49,991 nt of DNA from a virus. Positions 7,373-36,156 of this stretch are shown in pieces; the first letter of the stretch is position 1; each line of letters starts with the position of its first letter. Made by a program: the position numbers and the translations under genes. The notes under the pieces are model-generated. The model was not told the origin of the DNA. It was given only the letters and a program-made list of their open reading frames with translations, and did not search any database. The stretch is from the IMG/VR virus record IMGVR_UViG_3300021420_000049, positions 1 to 49,991 of that record; one strand, given 5' to 3'.

Positions 7373-7588
7373 TTAGACATATTTCTTTCCCTCTAGCGGC
7401 TTGCAATCTTTCGTAGGATGCAAATCGCATAGCTTCACTAATACATCTTGCGCTGACGCTTTAGCCTTGTTCCATCCGGCAAGATGTTCTAGCAATTTAT
7501 TGATCCGCCGTGCTACCTTGCGGCTTTCCCGAATACATATCTTTAGTTGTTTAACAGCCTGATGTTTCTTCGTTTGTGGTTTCTTCAT
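7373..7588 (-). CDS. Basic hypothetical protein, 71 aa
   Basis: Lysine/arginine-rich helical protein starting MKKPQTKKHQ. The ATG at 7588 has AGGAG 7 bases upstream, although this places the start 38 bp inside the end of the RNA ligase gene. A DLHPTKDCK segment near the end has no recognised meaning. Possibly nucleic-acid binding by charge alone. Confidence 0.55.
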   Translation of the reverse strand: MKKPQTKKHQAVKQLKICIRESRKVARRINKLLEHLAGWNKAKASAQDVLVKLCDLHPTKDCKPLEGKKYV

Positions 7589-8501
7589 TCGATACTCCTT
7601 CAAACTGTTTCTTTAACAACAGCTCTTTATACCATTCTGGTAAGCCACGTATTATTCCCCGCGAAATCTTGGGCCACGCAAATGCGAATAGCTTTTCCTT
7701 AATCTCTTCTTCGCATTCGCGCTTTATATCTGCTGGAACTTCTTTGATTAGTGCGGCAATATCCTGTGGTGAATCAGTTATTAATCCCTTCTCTGCAAGA
7801 TGTTGGATAGCCTTTTGCCAACGCGCCTGTGTATTGTATTCTGCTCCAAGATTGGCAATCATATCTCCCGTAGTAGGATTTTCGGTTTTCCACACATGAG
7901 CATGGGTCTCTTTAAAGGCTTCACTTACAAACTTGCCCATAAGCACTTCCTTATCTTTACCAAAAAGATTATAGAACACAGGTTTAATGACAATGCCCTC
8001 AATCTTTTGTCCACCGAGAACACTATCTTGCAGAAGAAATGACCGGACAAAAGCACCACCCGCCATAATCCCCTCCCATAACAAAGGAACTGTTTCCAGT
8101 CCTATACGATTAGCTTCCATCTGTTTAGCGGAATAGTTTAAAAATCGACATTCACTTATCTCAATATCAAATACAATAAGATGCTGCGCAGGTGCGCGAT
8201 TATAAGCAAGTACATTATGCTTGGGCTTTGCTAAGTATTCACAGCGATAAGTCCAGCCTGGGTGAAGATCATTTCTCAATCGCTTTACTGTTTCCACGGC
8301 TTTAGTGAACATTTTCTCTGGTGCCTCTACTACCATCTCGCAACCTTTCGAGCGCACTCGTAATTCGCCTTCTTCAGTTAAGCAAAATGAAAACTGTGAG
8401 CCATCTATCTTCTCTTCCACATATACGGGTCCCTTTAATAAGTCTGTAAGCGCGGCATGACCAAGATTATAAATGGATGAGTAACTATGCCAACTGGACA
8501 T
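7551..8501 (-). CDS. RNA ligase, Rnl2-like nucleotidyltransferase, 316 aa
   Basis: Seals nicks in RNA through a lysyl-AMP intermediate. Motif I is EKIDGSQ with nucleophile Lys31, followed by RSKG (50-53), ECEYL-like CEYLAKPKHN (88-96), FDIE (111-114, motif III), EGIVIK (168-173, motif IV) and MGKF...FKE (from 188, motif V). A C-terminal helical region from about 205 to 316 follows. In phages such ligases repair RNA, for example tRNA broken by host defence nucleases. No polynucleotide kinase/phosphatase partner is recognisable here. The start overlaps the nuclease gene upstream by 17 bp. Confidence 0.92.
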   Translation of the reverse strand: MSSWHSYSSIYNLGHAALTDLLKGPVYVEEKIDGSQFSFCLTEEGELRVRSKGCEMVVEAPEKMFTKAVETVKRLRNDLHPGWTYRCEYLAKPKHNVLAYNRAPAQHLIVFDIEISECRFLNYSAKQMEANRIGLETVPLLWEGIMAGGAFVRSFLLQDSVLGGQKIEGIVIKPVFYNLFGKDKEVLMGKFVSEAFKETHAHVWKTENPTTGDMIANLGAEYNTQARWQKAIQHLAEKGLITDSPQDIAALIKEVPADIKRECEEEIKEKLFAFAWPKISRGIIRGLPEWYKELLLKKQFEGVSNEETTNEETSGC

Positions 8502-10687: not shown

Positions 10688-10854
10688 AGTTTGGGTGTCC
10701 CTGTATTACTATAAGCGAAGCTCGCTATAGTAGTGCCCCATACCCCCGCCTCAGCCAAATTCATCGGTGGTAAATGAAATAATGGCGCAAGTAAACGAAT
10801 GATAAAAACTATACCAAATAAATCTACCCATGTTCCGCCGTCTAATGATTTCAT
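10684..10854 (-). CDS. Membrane microprotein, 56 aa
   Basis: Starts MKSLDGGTWVDLFGIVFII, with one or two hydrophobic stretches (about 10-28 and 36-48). ATGA overlaps at both ends connect it to the sigma-like gene upstream and the 42-aa membrane gene downstream. Function unknown; a holin or spanin-like role is possible. Confidence 0.55.
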   Translation of the reverse strand: MKSLDGGTWVDLFGIVFIIRLLAPLFHLPPMNLAEAGVWGTTIASFAYSNTGTPKL

Positions 10855-11228
10855 ACTCTCCCCCGGCTAATTGCCTGTTCACAGAAACTAGTTAGGAATT
10901 TCACCGCTCTATTCTTATACATTTGCACAGCACTCTTACTGATATTAAGAATCTCCGCTGCTTCGGCAAATGATTTATCTTCCCGCATAGTCAACAAATA
11001 CACTTCGCGTTGCCGTCCTTGTAAATGCTCTATGGCCTCTCCAAGTATAAGCTGAGGTGTGGAAGGAATACCGTACTCTGTTTCGGGCAACACATCAGGA
11101 TTGGCCTGGGCTTGTTCTTGCATGTTTAACTTTCCTACATGCTCCCAATAAGGTGAATGTTCCCCACTAGACGAATCTTTATGTGACTCAATTTGTCTAA
11201 TCTTCTGAAGCTTTGTTCTCTTTTTCAT
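10851..11228 (-). CDS. Sigma-region-4-like helix-turn-helix protein, 125 aa
   Basis: The C-terminal 55 residues read EAIEHLQGRQREVYLLTM, then SFAEAAEILNISKSAVQMYKNRA, the pattern of sigma70 region 4 and related HTH regulators. The N-terminal part is basic and polar with no region 2, so it cannot act as a complete sigma factor. It may redirect host RNA polymerase or act as a DNA-binding regulator of late genes. The ATG at 11228 follows GGGAGACAT; an in-frame TTG at 11312 would overlap the upstream gene. Its stop overlaps the 56-aa gene as ATGA. Confidence 0.75.
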   Translation of the reverse strand: MKKRTKLQKIRQIESHKDSSSGEHSPYWEHVGKLNMQEQAQANPDVLPETEYGIPSTPQLILGEAIEHLQGRQREVYLLTMREDKSFAEAAEILNISKSAVQMYKNRAVKFLTSFCEQAISRGRV

Positions 11229-11289
11229 ATGTCTCCCTATACTCTGTAGGCTTAAACTAGCTAAACGTATAACACCTTCATTGGAATTG

Positions 11290-11448
11290 TTATTCTCCTT
11301 GTCCTTCTGCAAGCGATTTTCGTTCTAAACGTGCAGCTTTTTTACGTGCTTTAGCTATCTTTTTGTTAAATATAAATACATCACGGCGCATATGTTTACG
11401 GGCCACGCGTGATTTTGTCGTAACACATTTGCCATAAGCTTTATACAT
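11290..11448 (-). CDS. Basic hypothetical protein, 52 aa
   Basis: Lysine/arginine-rich (FNKKIAKARKKAARLERKS) starting MYKAYGKCVTTKS, with GGAGAAATAATC before the ATG. Charge suggests nucleic-acid binding; no family recognised. A 61-base gap separates it from the sigma-like gene. Confidence 0.55.
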   Translation of the reverse strand: MYKAYGKCVTTKSRVARKHMRRDVFIFNKKIAKARKKAARLERKSLAEGQGE

Positions 11449-16508: not shown

Positions 16509-16624
16509 AACACAATGGATGTGGTTGTTCTTTGTGTATCTATGCTTGGACGGCCGGACCTGCTAACGAGATATTATTGCCTCTTGAATGGTATGAACAT
16601 GTGGTAAAGGTATCGAATCTATGA
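16505..16624 (+). CDS. Cysteine-containing microprotein, 39 aa
   Basis: A 39-codon frame starting MKHNGCGCSLCIYAW (CxC and CxxC), linked by ATGA overlaps on both sides. Coupling and exact fit are the evidence; function unknown. Confidence 0.5.
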   Translation: MKHNGCGCSLCIYAWTAGPANEILLPLEWYEHVVKVSNL

Positions 16625-16893
16625 ATGAGCGAACACTGTCTAGCGCGAACACTGAGCCGCAGTTATTGCTTGAATCAGGCCCGATGCTCTTGTGTGACTT
16701 CAATCCGAAAGGTTTGCTTCGATTCGCCGGACGTAAATGTATAACATGTGGCAATGAGATAATGGATCATTGGCTACGCCCTGCTGATGATCCTGACTTG
16801 CGCGGAGAGTATTGGTGTACGAAAGATGGTAATCAGTTTAGTCAGGGAATAGAGAATTGCACGATAGATTTGCCAGAAGGATTCAATAAGTAA
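16621..16893 (+). CDS. Zinc-binding hypothetical protein, 90 aa
   Basis: CITCGNE at 40-46 and later cysteines in EYWCTKDG and IENCTIDLPEGF suggest a zinc ribbon. Starts MNERTLSSAN with an ATGA overlap. It is the last small gene before the repeat-rich gap and packaging genes. Confidence 0.55.
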   Translation: MNERTLSSANTEPQLLLESGPMLLCDFNPKGLLRFAGRKCITCGNEIMDHWLRPADDPDLRGEYWCTKDGNQFSQGIENCTIDLPEGFNK

Positions 16894-17070
16894 TCATATA
16901 CCTTTTAGGATACAAAGTTCATGTATCCGCGCAAGGGAATAGCTAGGATAGACATTCAGGCGCAAGGGTGAACTGATTATTCCCGAACGGGAAGAATGCA
17001 GATAGATTTGTCGTAATACCGCATCGGGATGCCCGAACGGGAATATATACACTTGGGGAGATAATATAAC
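16894..17070 (+). other. Repeat-rich intergenic stretch before the packaging genes
   Basis: No gene. Contains GGATACA-7-TGTATCC (16908-16928), two copies of the 12-mer CCCGAACGGGAA (16982-16993 and 17032-17043), each an inverted repeat, an overlapping TCGGG-ATG-CCCGA (17024-17036) and two GCGCAAGGG-like repeats. The end carries GGGGAGATAAT before the next start. Position before the terminase is where pac or cos sites and regulatory leaders often lie; which it is cannot be told here. Confidence 0.7.
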
Positions 17071-17424
17071 ATGGAACAACTGAATCAGCCGCAAGGGCCG
17101 GACTTGAAGCCTACATTGGAGCAGACATTATCGAATACTGAAGCCGTGCGTGACCTATTCGCTAGAGCACATGACTATATTGCTAATGCCAGTCATCCCG
17201 GTCATTTGGGTATGAAGGTGGCGGAAGTGCTTAATTTCCTAGCGTTTCATCACGCTGATTTCAAGATGCGCGGTGAGAAGATTGCTAGTCAGATTGCCGC
17301 CGAAGCTAAAGCCGCGTTGAACAAGGTGGATGTGGAAGCCGCGAAGATGGTGACGAATGCGGTGCTATCAGACGAACATGGTGCAACGGATGCCGTGATT
17401 GTGCAGGAAGCTCCCAAAGTCTAG
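17071..17424 (+). CDS. Hypothetical protein, candidate small terminase subunit, 117 aa
   Basis: An Ala-rich helical protein: EQTLSNTEAVRDLFARAHDYI, then HLGMKVAEVLNFLAFHHADF and ASQIAAEAKAALNKV. It ends directly against the terminase start (stop TAG followed by GTG). The position fits a small terminase subunit, yet no DNA-binding domain is obvious, so this is inference. Confidence 0.6.
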   Translation: MEQLNQPQGPDLKPTLEQTLSNTEAVRDLFARAHDYIANASHPGHLGMKVAEVLNFLAFHHADFKMRGEKIASQIAAEAKAALNKVDVEAAKMVTNAVLSDEHGATDAVIVQEAPKV

Positions 17425-18900
17425 GTGACCGATGCTGAGAAGGCCATCGAAGCCTCATGGCAAATAGGTCGATTGTATGTGCATCTCAACCCTAGCCAAC
17501 GTAAGATATATGATGCGTTCAAGCTAAGTCTAGGTAAGAATTCAAAGTTTGTTGTCAACTGTAGCCGCAAGATTGGGAAAAGCGTACTCGGTCTGTTCCT
17601 CGGAGCAGAGACATGTATAGCTAACAAGAATGCTCTTGTGGCATTCATTGCTCCCACGGTGGATGATGTTCAAGAGTATGTCAGACAACTGTACGATGTT
17701 GTCTTTGCTAGTTGTCCTGAGCATTTAAAGCCCAAGTTACGAAAGACTCAGTTAGTATTCAGGAATGGATCAAAGATACTTTTCAGGGGTGTTGGTAAGG
17801 GTGTAGGCACATCCTATAACAATCTTCGTTCATTCGCCTTTGATTTAATTGTTCTAGATGAAGCCGGATTCTCTGCTAATTTGGATGAGATAGTGGATGG
17901 TGCCTTAGTTTCGACGCTCATCCCACGCAACGGAAACATGCTTCTGTTGTCCACACCCCCCGTCACGCCTGACCACGCGTTTAAAGGTTATTGCGATCAA
18001 GCGGAAATCGACGGGGCCTATATGAAGCTCACAATACGGGATAGTCATTACCCGTTGGAGCGGCAAGAGAAATTCATAAAAGACCTAGGCGGTCTTACAT
18101 CGCATAAGGTACGAAGAGAGTACTTCTGTGAATTCGTTATTGATACGGATTTTCAGTTATGTCCTGAATGGAAGCCTGAATATGAACGTGAGTTGCCCAA
18201 AACGGACAACTTCAAACTTTGGTTCAAGTATGATGCCTTGGACCAGGGATGGACAGATAACTCAGTGTGCGGCTTTGCAAGTGTCGAATGGGCTCCTGGC
18301 AAGCCATCAGTCCTGGTAATACGCGATGAAGTGTGTATGAAAAGCCCGGAACAAACCACCGATTTATTAGCCGAACGCATTATAGCCAAAGAAAAAGAAG
18401 TGTTTGGGGATATGGAGATAAAGAAGCGTATAGCAGACAATAATACGCCATCACTTTTGCAAGACTTTAACTTGCGGCATCGTTTATATTTCTCTCCCGT
18501 AGAGAGTAAGACCTACCTAGATGTGATGGTGTCAGATGTACGAGAATTAGTAAAAGAGGGGCGGATACTCATTAGTCCGAAATGTGTCCAGACAATCGGA
18601 TGCCTGAAGAATGGCGTGTGGACTAAGACGAAGGGTGGAGCGCGGGGCAAGGAATTCTCCCGCTCGAAGACCTACGGCCATTATGATGGCTTCGCAATGC
18701 TAATGTATCTAGTTCGTAGCGTGGATATGGTACATAATCCTTTGCCTCCCGCGTTTAGACAGAATGAAGAGAATACATTTATTCCTAAACAATTACTAGA
18801 AGGCGACAAGGCAAAGACAGCAGAAATAGTAAGTGCAGGATTAGATGAAGCTATGAATCAAGATTTTAATATACGAGACCATAACGAAAGCTATGACTAA
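17425..18900 (+). CDS. terL: Terminase large subunit, 491 aa
   Basis: The packaging motor: an ATPase that drives DNA into the prohead, and a nuclease that cuts it. Walker A is CSRKIGKS (46-53), Walker B LIVLDEAG (141-148) and the coupling motif LLLSTP (172-177). The RNase H-like nuclease domain starts with ALDQGWTD (Asp272), then RIADNN (Asp337) and YGHYDGF (Asp420). GTG start immediately after the previous stop; the usual family length. Overlaps the next small gene by 8 bp. Confidence 0.96.
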   Translation: MTDAEKAIEASWQIGRLYVHLNPSQRKIYDAFKLSLGKNSKFVVNCSRKIGKSVLGLFLGAETCIANKNALVAFIAPTVDDVQEYVRQLYDVVFASCPEHLKPKLRKTQLVFRNGSKILFRGVGKGVGTSYNNLRSFAFDLIVLDEAGFSANLDEIVDGALVSTLIPRNGNMLLLSTPPVTPDHAFKGYCDQAEIDGAYMKLTIRDSHYPLERQEKFIKDLGGLTSHKVRREYFCEFVIDTDFQLCPEWKPEYERELPKTDNFKLWFKYDALDQGWTDNSVCGFASVEWAPGKPSVLVIRDEVCMKSPEQTTDLLAERIIAKEKEVFGDMEIKKRIADNNTPSLLQDFNLRHRLYFSPVESKTYLDVMVSDVRELVKEGRILISPKCVQTIGCLKNGVWTKTKGGARGKEFSRSKTYGHYDGFAMLMYLVRSVDMVHNPLPPAFRQNEENTFIPKQLLEGDKAKTAEIVSAGLDEAMNQDFNIRDHNESYD

Positions 18901-30536: not shown

Positions 30537-30611
30537 CGCAGAGTGGAGCATTGGTAGCTCGACGGGCTCATAATCCGTAGGTAGGCAGTTCGATTCTGCC
30601 CTCTGCAACCA
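30537..30611 (+). tRNA. tRNA-Met(CAU), initiator type (fMet)
   Basis: 75-nt cloverleaf with encoded CCA. Acceptor CGCAGAG/CTCTGCA leaves position 1-72 as C:A, D arm GAGC...GCTC (A11:U24), anticodon arm ACGGG-CTCATAA-TCCGT, 5-base variable loop AGGTA, T arm GGCAG-TTCGATT-CTGCC, discriminator A and CCA. C1:A72 mismatch, A11:U24 and two G-C plus a G.U pair at the base of the anticodon stem are the hallmarks of bacterial initiator tRNA; an elongator tRNA would have a paired 1-72. It lies in the gap between scaffold and the 78-aa gene and is the only tRNA recognised. Confidence 0.92.
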
Positions 30612-33642: not shown

Positions 33643-36156
33643 TTGAGCGAAATAATCACATTCCCTCTGCCTAGCGGCCTGAATTATACAATTCCCGATA
33701 TTGGGGATGTAAATTGGGGTCAAAATGTAACGAATTTTTTGGTAGCTATACCACACGGAGTATTCCCTACCGCCGGGCTATTTCCTTTAACCGGCGATGT
33801 TACTTTAACGGGCGGCTTTGGTCTCTTTGCTCCTTATTTTAGATCCACCACAGTCAATCCTGCTACGGCAGGTCAGATCAGTCTTGCCAAAACCGATTCA
33901 ATAGACTGGCGTAATAATGCCAATAGTGCAAATCTTCCGTTAGCTATTAATGGAAGCGATCAACTTACTTTTAATGGAATTGTCATTGCATCAGGAACCG
34001 GGAATGTACTGTCAATTATAGGAACGCCTAATCAAGTTATAGCTTCTAGTCCTACGGGGAATGTCACTCTTTCCCTTCCCCAAGATATTGCTACCGCTTC
34101 TTCCCCAACCTTTTTAAGTTTAACCCTCACTAATGCTTTGACTGTTGGGGCTCCTCCCAATGCAACAGCGGGTACAATCCGTCTCGCTAATGCAGATGAT
34201 ATTGCATGGCGAAATGCGGCCAATACGGGAAATATATTTTTAGAGGTTAATAGCTCAAATCAATTACAGTATAACAGTCATCCTGTATTTGATTCAAATG
34301 GAGTATTAATTAATCTAGGAGTTATCAATGTAAAAGATGCCCCTTATAGCGCAACTGGTAACGGTACTACAGATGACACAGTTGCCATTCAAAGTGCTAT
34401 TAATGCCGCTGTAGGTGGACAAACAGTATTCTTCCCTTCTGGTAATTATCATATTACCGCCGCTCTTAAACTCCCCGCAGGTCCTATTCGACTTTTAGGT
34501 TACAATCCTCTCTCTGCATCTTCAGGAACAACGATCACGCAAACGGCTACAGATTCTATATTCAATCTATTTATCGGAAGTGCTACGGATGCTACGATTC
34601 AAAATATAGAAATTAGTGGCTTTCATTTAGTTGGTGGTAATGACCAGATTTATGTGCAGAACGGTGGTGTTTGGGTTACAATTACAGACGTATTTTTTGA
34701 TAATCCTAGCACAGCTGGTATTTTTATGAAAGGTTTTAATCAGCAATGGTTTGTGAAGAACTGTAACTTTGCGGGAGGACAATACGGAATTTTTCTTAAT
34801 TCCGCAGGATTACAAGCAGATAACTCATCAACTGGAACACCTCCGCTATGGGATAAATGTAATTATGATTCAGTAAACTTTTCGAGTGCGACAATAAATG
34901 GTGTTCATATTGAGCTTCCAACAGGAGTCGGTGGGAGTGCAACTTTCAAAGATGTAGTGGTTAACTTTTGTGCCCAGGATGGTATTGTTCTTGCTGGTGG
35001 AATTGGAAATGTTCTATTCGACACATTGAATACAGAGTCTAATGGTTTTACGGGGTCTGCTCCAATACCCCCAATGCTCGCAAATACTATGGCGGGTAAT
35101 GCCACGGTATCTGTATCTGCTGGTGGAACCTTGGTAAATGGTCAGACTGTTACAATTCAAGGAGCAGGTGTAAATGGGGTAGATTGGTATCCCGTTATTC
35201 AGAGTGGTGGCGGCACCAATGTTCTTGTTATGACCACTACAGCCCCCACTTCTGTAAATGCCGCAGAACTTGTCACGTATTTATATTCTGATGTTAAATT
35301 AATGGGAACTGGCGGCGGTAGTTTATATGCCATAGCATTTAATAATGCTCTTGTGGGCAGTAGTTCCCCAGTTGCCGCTACCCGCTATGGTATAGATCTT
35401 ACTGGATCAAATGATTCAATTGTTACAAATGTTCGTTGCGTTAGACCCATGTATGATCCTAATCAAATTCTTCAAACCTCTGGCACTTATGGGGATATGC
35501 TTGTTCGTAGACCGAATAATTTCCTTACTGAAAGGTTCTATACTTCTTATTCTGGCGGGGTTGGAGATTTAACAAATCCTAGAACTCAACTTACAAGTCC
35601 TGCTGGAAAAGATATTGTTATGGGACTTTTAGACAGCACGGCAAATACTTCAGGAACATTCGGCAACTTTGAGATCAGAAAATCGGATTCTAGCCGAACA
35701 AAGTTATTTGCGGTGAACGGGACAACCGGAGTAGTTACGGGTACAATTACCGGGGCTATAGTTCAAGCTGTTCAGCATACTGATAGCGTTGGTTATACGA
35801 CTACTTCAAGCACATTCCAAACAGGAAGTAGTTTATCAATTACTCCTTCTTCAGCTACATCTAAAATTCGTGTAACGGTTACTGGTTGCGCCTTTAGCGC
35901 AGGTTCAACTACTGAATATTTATCTATTTTTAGAGGGGCTACAAATCTTGCGGGATCTGGAAATCATTTTTCTAGGCTCCAATTATCAAATAGTGCAATA
36001 TCTTATTCAATGTCCTATTATGATAGTCCGGCAACAACGTCTAGCATAACCTATTCTATTAATTTTGCAAATAATGATAATACCACAGCCGTTTTTTCAA
36101 GCGGAGCATCGGCACCAGATGTGGCATATATTTTGCTAGAAGAAATCGCAGGATAA
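33643..36156 (+). CDS. Tailspike with pectate-lyase-like beta-helix, 837 aa
   Basis: The N-terminal head-binding part is fibre-like. From about residue 229 the KDAPYSATGNGTTDDTVAIQSAINAA and TVFFPSGNYHITAAL segment is the signature of the pectate lyase superfamily domain used by polysaccharide-degrading tailspikes, followed by right-handed beta-helix rungs to about 500. The last 127 residues (ITPSSATSKI, DSPATTS, ending LEEIAG) match the end of the fibre at 21537-23606. It likely cleaves or binds surface glycans. TTG start with AGGAG upstream. Confidence 0.85.
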   Translation: MSEIITFPLPSGLNYTIPDIGDVNWGQNVTNFLVAIPHGVFPTAGLFPLTGDVTLTGGFGLFAPYFRSTTVNPATAGQISLAKTDSIDWRNNANSANLPLAINGSDQLTFNGIVIASGTGNVLSIIGTPNQVIASSPTGNVTLSLPQDIATASSPTFLSLTLTNALTVGAPPNATAGTIRLANADDIAWRNAANTGNIFLEVNSSNQLQYNSHPVFDSNGVLINLGVINVKDAPYSATGNGTTDDTVAIQSAINAAVGGQTVFFPSGNYHITAALKLPAGPIRLLGYNPLSASSGTTITQTATDSIFNLFIGSATDATIQNIEISGFHLVGGNDQIYVQNGGVWVTITDVFFDNPSTAGIFMKGFNQQWFVKNCNFAGGQYGIFLNSAGLQADNSSTGTPPLWDKCNYDSVNFSSATINGVHIELPTGVGGSATFKDVVVNFCAQDGIVLAGGIGNVLFDTLNTESNGFTGSAPIPPMLANTMAGNATVSVSAGGTLVNGQTVTIQGAGVNGVDWYPVIQSGGGTNVLVMTTTAPTSVNAAELVTYLYSDVKLMGTGGGSLYAIAFNNALVGSSSPVAATRYGIDLTGSNDSIVTNVRCVRPMYDPNQILQTSGTYGDMLVRRPNNFLTERFYTSYSGGVGDLTNPRTQLTSPAGKDIVMGLLDSTANTSGTFGNFEIRKSDSSRTKLFAVNGTTGVVTGTITGAIVQAVQHTDSVGYTTTSSTFQTGSSLSITPSSATSKIRVTVTGCAFSAGSTTEYLSIFRGATNLAGSGNHFSRLQLSNSAISYSMSYYDSPATTSSITYSINFANNDNTTAVFSSGASAPDVAYILLEEIAG

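Follow-up and report, generated by a model that had tools for sequence, protein, structure and literature searches.

What do two copies of one short palindrome do in the last gap before the terminase genes of a soil phage? The virus record analysed here has a length of 49,991 bp and is referred to as the window. Its gap at 16894-17070 lies between a 90-aa open reading frame (ORF) and a 117-aa ORF; the latter is followed by the gene for the terminase large subunit (TerL) and by a portal-like ORF. The original prediction had placed in this gap two 12-mers 50 bp apart, an overlapping competing hairpin and a GGATACA/TGTATCC hairpin, and had read them as a packaging recognition site or a leader with switching structure. 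The elements themselves were all recovered. The 12-mer CCCGAACGGGAA has exact copies at 16982-16993 and 17032-17043 (+ strand), 50 bp from start to start, both hairpins are present where predicted, and the gap is indeed the one before the terminase, with a putative small-terminase gene first and TerL next (Table 1).

Table 1. Positions of the palindromes and neighbouring features in the window.
Feature	Position	Strand	Remarks
Palindrome copy 1, TTCCCGAACGGGAA	16980-16993	no strand	Exact match to TTCCCGNNCGGGAA
Palindrome copy 2, TGCCCGAACGGGAA	17030-17043	no strand	Differs from TTCCCGNNCGGGAA by one mismatch; spaced 50 bp from copy 1
36-bp spacer separating the 14-mers	16994-17029	no strand	Sequence not common to unrelated phages
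Competing inverted repeat, TCGGGATGCCCGA	17024-17036	+	Overlaps copy 2; related forms in L007 and G009
GGATACA/TGTATCC inverted repeat	16908-16928	+	Arms 16908-16914 and 16922-16928; outside the twin site
Probable ribosome-binding site (GGGGAG) for the 117-aa gene	17055-17060	+	TCGGGGGA-like in relatives
117-aa ORF, in small-terminase position	17071-17424	+	Predicted all-helical
Terminase large subunit (TerL)	17425-18900	+	phrog_2, E 5e-24

The palindromes in the window are a real, non-random pair. With one mismatch allowed, CCCGAACGGGAA matched the window three times, where 0.09 matches would be expected, and the pattern CCCGNNCGGG-N36..44-CCCGNNCGGG occurred once in the window but in none of 100 dinucleotide shuffles. 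The GGATACA/TGTATCC repeat is part of an upstream hairpin region whose sequence is partly conserved in seven leaders. A second module, of two hairpins upstream of the twin site, TTATCC...GGGTATAA...TTATCC...GGATA, was found with partly conserved sequence at 16894-16945 of the window and in L007, L009, L017, L031 and G010. When the motif ATTTTAGCCGTAAACSG was sought without mismatches, the hits were the L031 contig, L009 and a coincidental match in coding sequence.

Relatives of the locus were gathered as 18 loci by protein searches, one more by profile, and further TerL relatives. The resulting family has 24 members including the window, with L008 (a near copy of L007) and L094 (a copy of the L093 region) omitted. 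The gap before the 117-aa gene ranged from 18 to 279 bp in the 17 distinct relatives measured, and in some of them the interval separating these genes was just 18-43 bp. Around this gene, the canonical pair was found in none of the 23 window relatives at up to three mismatches, and the twin pair was likewise missing from the whole records of relatives (0/11). It was absent even where TerL was 78-93% identical. The phage collection searched contained no close relative of the window genome and no match to the 117-aa protein or to DNA 16600-18900, and the collection of genome contigs searched contained no relatives of the 117-aa protein or of TerL.

By its position, the 117-aa ORF is a putative small terminase (TerS). 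We saw no helix-turn-helix (HTH) in its protein and found no database family for it; the structural model consisted of helices only (pLDDT 79), with no significant PDB match and no match in the fold search at E <=0.001. Across the family, conservation of synonymous codons was raised at codons 53-69 of this gene (window 17227-17277). A packaging site embedded in the gene is one possible reason for this conservation, simple codon preference another.

The same pair was present in phages unrelated to the window, at nearly the same spacing. As a control, the single-copy pattern CCCGAACGGGAATA was scanned in IMG/VR, and 80 loci were kept among the matches listed. A second copy with at most three mismatches lay at 49-51 bp in 25 of these 80 listed loci; when the second copy was sought 40-60 bp around each, it was found in 18 distinct loci, always at 49-51 bp. 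Exact pairs with a spacing of 35-65 bp numbered at least 71 (at least 35 at 49 bp, at least 26 at 50 bp and at least 10 elsewhere), although these counts include related contigs, a single group of which accounts for many of the 49-bp pairs. We also made a complete scan with the centre left free, for TTCCCNNNNGGGAA occurring twice at a spacing of 38-68 bp. Among 80 examined of the 101 stretches obtained, 33 of 48 distinct pairs were at 49-51 bp (12 at 49, 14 at 50 and 7 at 51). The remaining 15 had other spacings, with minor groups at 60, 46 and 39 bp (L342, L355, L360, L388 and others). Pooling the matches listed gave 112 distinct pairs with a spacing of 20-120 bp, of which 68 were at 49-51 bp; the pools were gathered with motif-based patterns, and related contigs inflate the raw counts. 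The 2-bp centres of these 68 pairs were identical in both copies in 40 cases and inverted in 3. Near-duplicate contigs were collapsed in the free-centre and pooled counts, as well as in the site-position and arm-change counts given below.

By our definition, a twin site consists of two TTCCCGNNCGGGAA copies that are 49-51 bp apart, have no more than three mismatches in the 24 fixed bases and occur about once per genome. The window holds one such site, the sole pair in its genome, with 23 of the 24 fixed bases matched (one mismatch) and a spacing of 50 bp. Spacers were richer in A/T than their flanks (0.30 vs 0.41 for pairs at 49 bp, 0.41 vs 0.48 at 50 bp and 0.54 vs 0.58 at 51 bp). Copies 49 or 50 bp apart are in different reading frames, and hence do not represent peptide repeats. 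In the freshwater contigs L227, L231, L232 and similar ones, the palindromes are followed by n6-GTAAGAAAAAGT-like repeats with a 49-bp period.

Chance, or a local turnover of repeats without function, would agree with the absence of the pair from close relatives and with a gap that is rich in varied inverted repeats. We nevertheless regard this explanation as very improbable, since the shuffles yielded no such pair and the spacing in the window agrees with that in unrelated phages, where the spacing peak disfavours chance.

The number and position of the sites were studied in 25 records of 33 to 456 kb, mostly picked as site carriers. An exact pair was present in 21 of these records; 20 contained one pair, and G037 contained three, at its two contig ends. 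The spacing was 49-51 bp in 20 of the 21 and 38 bp in G029. Among 41 distinct sites, 18 were inside ORFs (10 against and 8 along the ORF), 18 were intergenic and 5 overlapped an ORF end. Of the 21 site-containing ORFs, 20 were scanned against PHROG: five encoded cobS-like ATPases, one a TerL and one a DNA polymerase, and ten had no PHROG family. No family was common to them, phrog_249 occurring in 5 of the 20. Similarly, no PHROG or Pfam family occurred in more than 5 of the 68 flanking ORFs (SprT-like in 5, RusA-like in 2). One of these 68 ORFs, adjoining a site, encodes an Acb2/Tad1 hairpin-domain protein of an anti-defence family. A tRNA scan of 37 loci revealed any tRNA or tmRNA in seven; a tRNA gene lay 3-7 nt away from the site in L113, L127, L144, L358 and L407, but not in L185 and L316. 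The window itself has one tRNA-Met gene, at 30537-30611 (+).

Among named isolates, Synechococcus phage S-RIM8 carried the pair at 35696-35759, in an intergenic position between two small ORFs. The pair was absent from seven of the eight cyanophage records, and the canonical pair was absent from the cobS gene of all eight named cyanophages. The cobS gene of S-RIM44 contained a degenerate pair with four mismatches and a spacing of 50 bp, and the surrounding protein stretch was common to all eight, which suggests that base changes create the pair in situ. In cobS-like genes, the pair seems to have formed inside a conserved coding sequence. Its absence from seven of eight cyanophages and from all 23 window relatives shows that the twin site comes and goes.

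Changes in the palindrome arms distinguish a DNA dyad from an RNA hairpin. In 57 sites with one perfect copy, we scored the 342 arm pairs of the partner copy: 296 were unchanged, 46 were changed on one side, and none were compensated. The 46 one-sided changes comprised 7 G-T, 7 A-C and 32 other combinations. Moreover, the G and C flanking the 2-bp centre, which would be loop bases in an RNA hairpin, were conserved like the arms. One-sided changes without compensation, with G-T as frequent as A-C, point to a sequence-specific DNA dyad and not an RNA hairpin. The dyads are sequence-specific and double-stranded, with a fixed spacing, and are widespread in unrelated phage contigs, usually as one pair per genome.

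The family of the window provides the evidence for a structured RNA. According to this explanation, the terminase mRNA would have a structured 5' leader, in which a hairpin located 10-15 nt ahead of the ribosome site, accompanied by others upstream, would stabilise, process or tune the transcript. The hairpin of the window could switch between CCC-GAAC-GGG and TCGGG-AUG-CCCGA. RNAalifold placed a hairpin at the second palindrome in ten leaders aligned without structure. At this position, 81.4% of cells were paired against 64.6 ± 4.2 in shuffled leaders, and covariation was 0.568 against 0.283, with 0 of 500 shuffles as high in either case and slid versions only 29-46% paired. For pairing, double changes and covariation alike, the second palindrome scored above every one of the 500 shuffles and every slid version. 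Inverted repeats scoring at least 6.5 preceded the ribosome site in 13 of the 24 members, against 4.1 ± 1.6 in shuffles; these 13 include L003 and L016, though both were classed as lacking the array. Fold z-scores below -2.5 occurred in 9 of the 24 members, compared with 3-7% of genes in gap bins, a background of 440 genes of which some are also family members. Long gaps were rich in inverted repeats, 12 leaders together having 22 where shuffles had 9.6 ± 2.9. In total, eight of the 24 members had the full array, two had parts of it, six had other hairpins and eight had none. An RNA model (R1) recovered its own ten leaders and, at the same site, L003 (E 0.01), L001, G011 and L013 (E 0.18-0.41), with no second site in 541 kb; its signal is partly that of the common ribosome site and start codon.

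Other results speak against a leader RNA. The array is patchy, requiring six changes on the TerL tree and clustering no more than shuffled labels. A strand preference was lacking, with G-T to A-C ratios of 12:7 and 5:3 in the family and 7:7 in the widespread set. The minus strand also had low z-scores (mean -1.20), such that both strands folded about equally, and the gap of the window, folded as RNA, had an unremarkable stability (z -1.6). Rfam gave no match. The pairs of unrelated phages showed no compensation and were located in ORFs and gaps of every orientation. As a full explanation the leader RNA was therefore demoted to a family-level rival by the unrelated pairs and the zero compensation, and we consider it rather unlikely. 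The switching leader proposed originally keeps some support from the compensation at the second palindrome within the family and from the competing hairpin in the window, but the widespread form shows no compensation. The covariation in relatives named as a check gave a divided answer: compensatory changes were found at the second-palindrome position, but the canonical pair itself in 0/23.

A further alternative is that the window pair is a packaging initiation site (pac) resembling that of phage SPP1, which covers the promoters and beginning of the small-terminase gene and contains direct repeats (PMC4737164). The window pair lies directly before the gene in small-terminase position, overlapping the beginning of the putative small-terminase region, which is similar to the repeats located just before the small-terminase gene in SPP1 and its relative SF6. 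Those repeats differ between relatives, boxA being missing in SF6 (PMC4737164), and thus need not be conserved, so that packaging is possible for the window. One pair per genome would also suit a pac, as would circularly permuted contigs. Six contigs of 49.9-50.8 kb (the window, G002, G004, G005, G009 and G011) were colinear with six different start points, a map that fits circular permutation or circular forms; deriving cos or pac from the contig ends was dropped, because six different starts decide neither way. In other phages, however, the same site is far from the terminase, at tRNA arrays and in cobS-like and DNA polymerase ORFs, and one site is inside a TerL ORF (L335), which makes packaging unlikely as a general role. 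The pair is also absent from relatives with nearly the same terminase (see above). Furthermore, the SPP1 boxes are direct repeats of another sequence recognised by an HTH small terminase (PMC4737164), whereas no HTH was seen in the 117-aa protein and the twin pair, unlike the SPP1 boxes, also occurs away from terminase genes. Packaging is accordingly an improbable function of the pair in the window. From the packaging recognition site proposed originally, recognition by a protein survives as the most likely reading, but packaging is made less likely by the relatives and by the unrelated sites elsewhere.

We consider it probable that the two 12-mers are halves of a paired DNA site, most likely bound by a protein and present about once per genome. 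The consensus consists of two TTCCCG-NN-CGGGAA dyads with centres 49-51 bp apart and A/T-rich inner flanks. Half-sites of TTCCCG around a 2-bp centre resemble a homodimer site, and each dyad may thus be bound by a homodimer. Two dyads at a fixed distance suggest one complex across both, in which two dimers or one tetramer would span the A/T-rich DNA between them. In the window, 11 bp would separate such a complex from the downstream ribosome-binding site of the terminase operon. Either the host or the phage could supply the binding protein. Two candidates were rejected: ParB, whose N-domain was found in 3 of 29 records and not in the window, and a sigma-70 region 4 protein, found in 4 of 25 site-bearing records.

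The least certain step concerns the role of the site, which may be to mark a place in the genome, such as the start of replication or segregation, the start of packaging, or a recombination target. A place marker is likelier than control of one gene, since the site is near-unique, occurs anywhere including within ORFs and is not linked to particular neighbouring genes. More tentatively, and at somewhat less than even chances, unrelated lineages may independently evolve and keep one twin-TTCCCGNNCGGGAA address site (49-51 bp) for a conserved, possibly host, factor that serves a step common to tailed phages.

Several known systems share some of these properties. The sites of ParB and Noc (parS and NBS) are also short palindromes, have arms of the TTCC/GGAA type and mark a position on the replicon, but their centres are unlike that of the twin site, and they are not known to have a fixed 50-bp pairing. 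The rarity of the ParB N-domain noted above also sets parS apart. REPINs consist of two palindromes at a set distance; they are mobile and numerous within a genome, whereas the twin site occurs about once per genome and its spacer and flanks are not common between carriers. The sequence is also similar to that of the Group I site of BldM in Streptomyces, TCACcCgnncGgGTGA, a 16-bp dyad bound by a homodimeric response regulator, which has the same CCCG-NN-CGGG core with a 2-bp centre (PMC4125116). The BldM site has TCA/TGA as its outer bases, whereas those of the window and of the widespread set are TT/AA. Moreover, BldM sites are promoter sites of a host regulator in one genus, and the accessible part of that account describes no 50-bp pairing (PMC4125116).

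No description of such an element came up when literature, largely open-access, was searched for the core sequences or for palindrome pairs of phages. The twin site may therefore be a new form of a familiar type of element, the paired operator-like DNA site, possibly with a categorically new role. An exactly spaced signature common to otherwise dissimilar phages would indicate one unrecognised interaction. Any genome can be screened for this signature, and a 64-bp bait offers a direct handle on its protein. If that protein is a host factor, many phages would address the same host function at one place in their genomes.

Other features were noted elsewhere in the window. Two strong sigma-70-like promoters (TTGACA-17-TATACT) at 15219-15191 and 14653-14625 (-) drive leftward genes. 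A phage protein with a sigma-70 region 4 domain is encoded at 10851-11312 (-), and also in G002, G004, G005 and G011. Finally, an RNA ligase gene is located at 7551-8501 (-).
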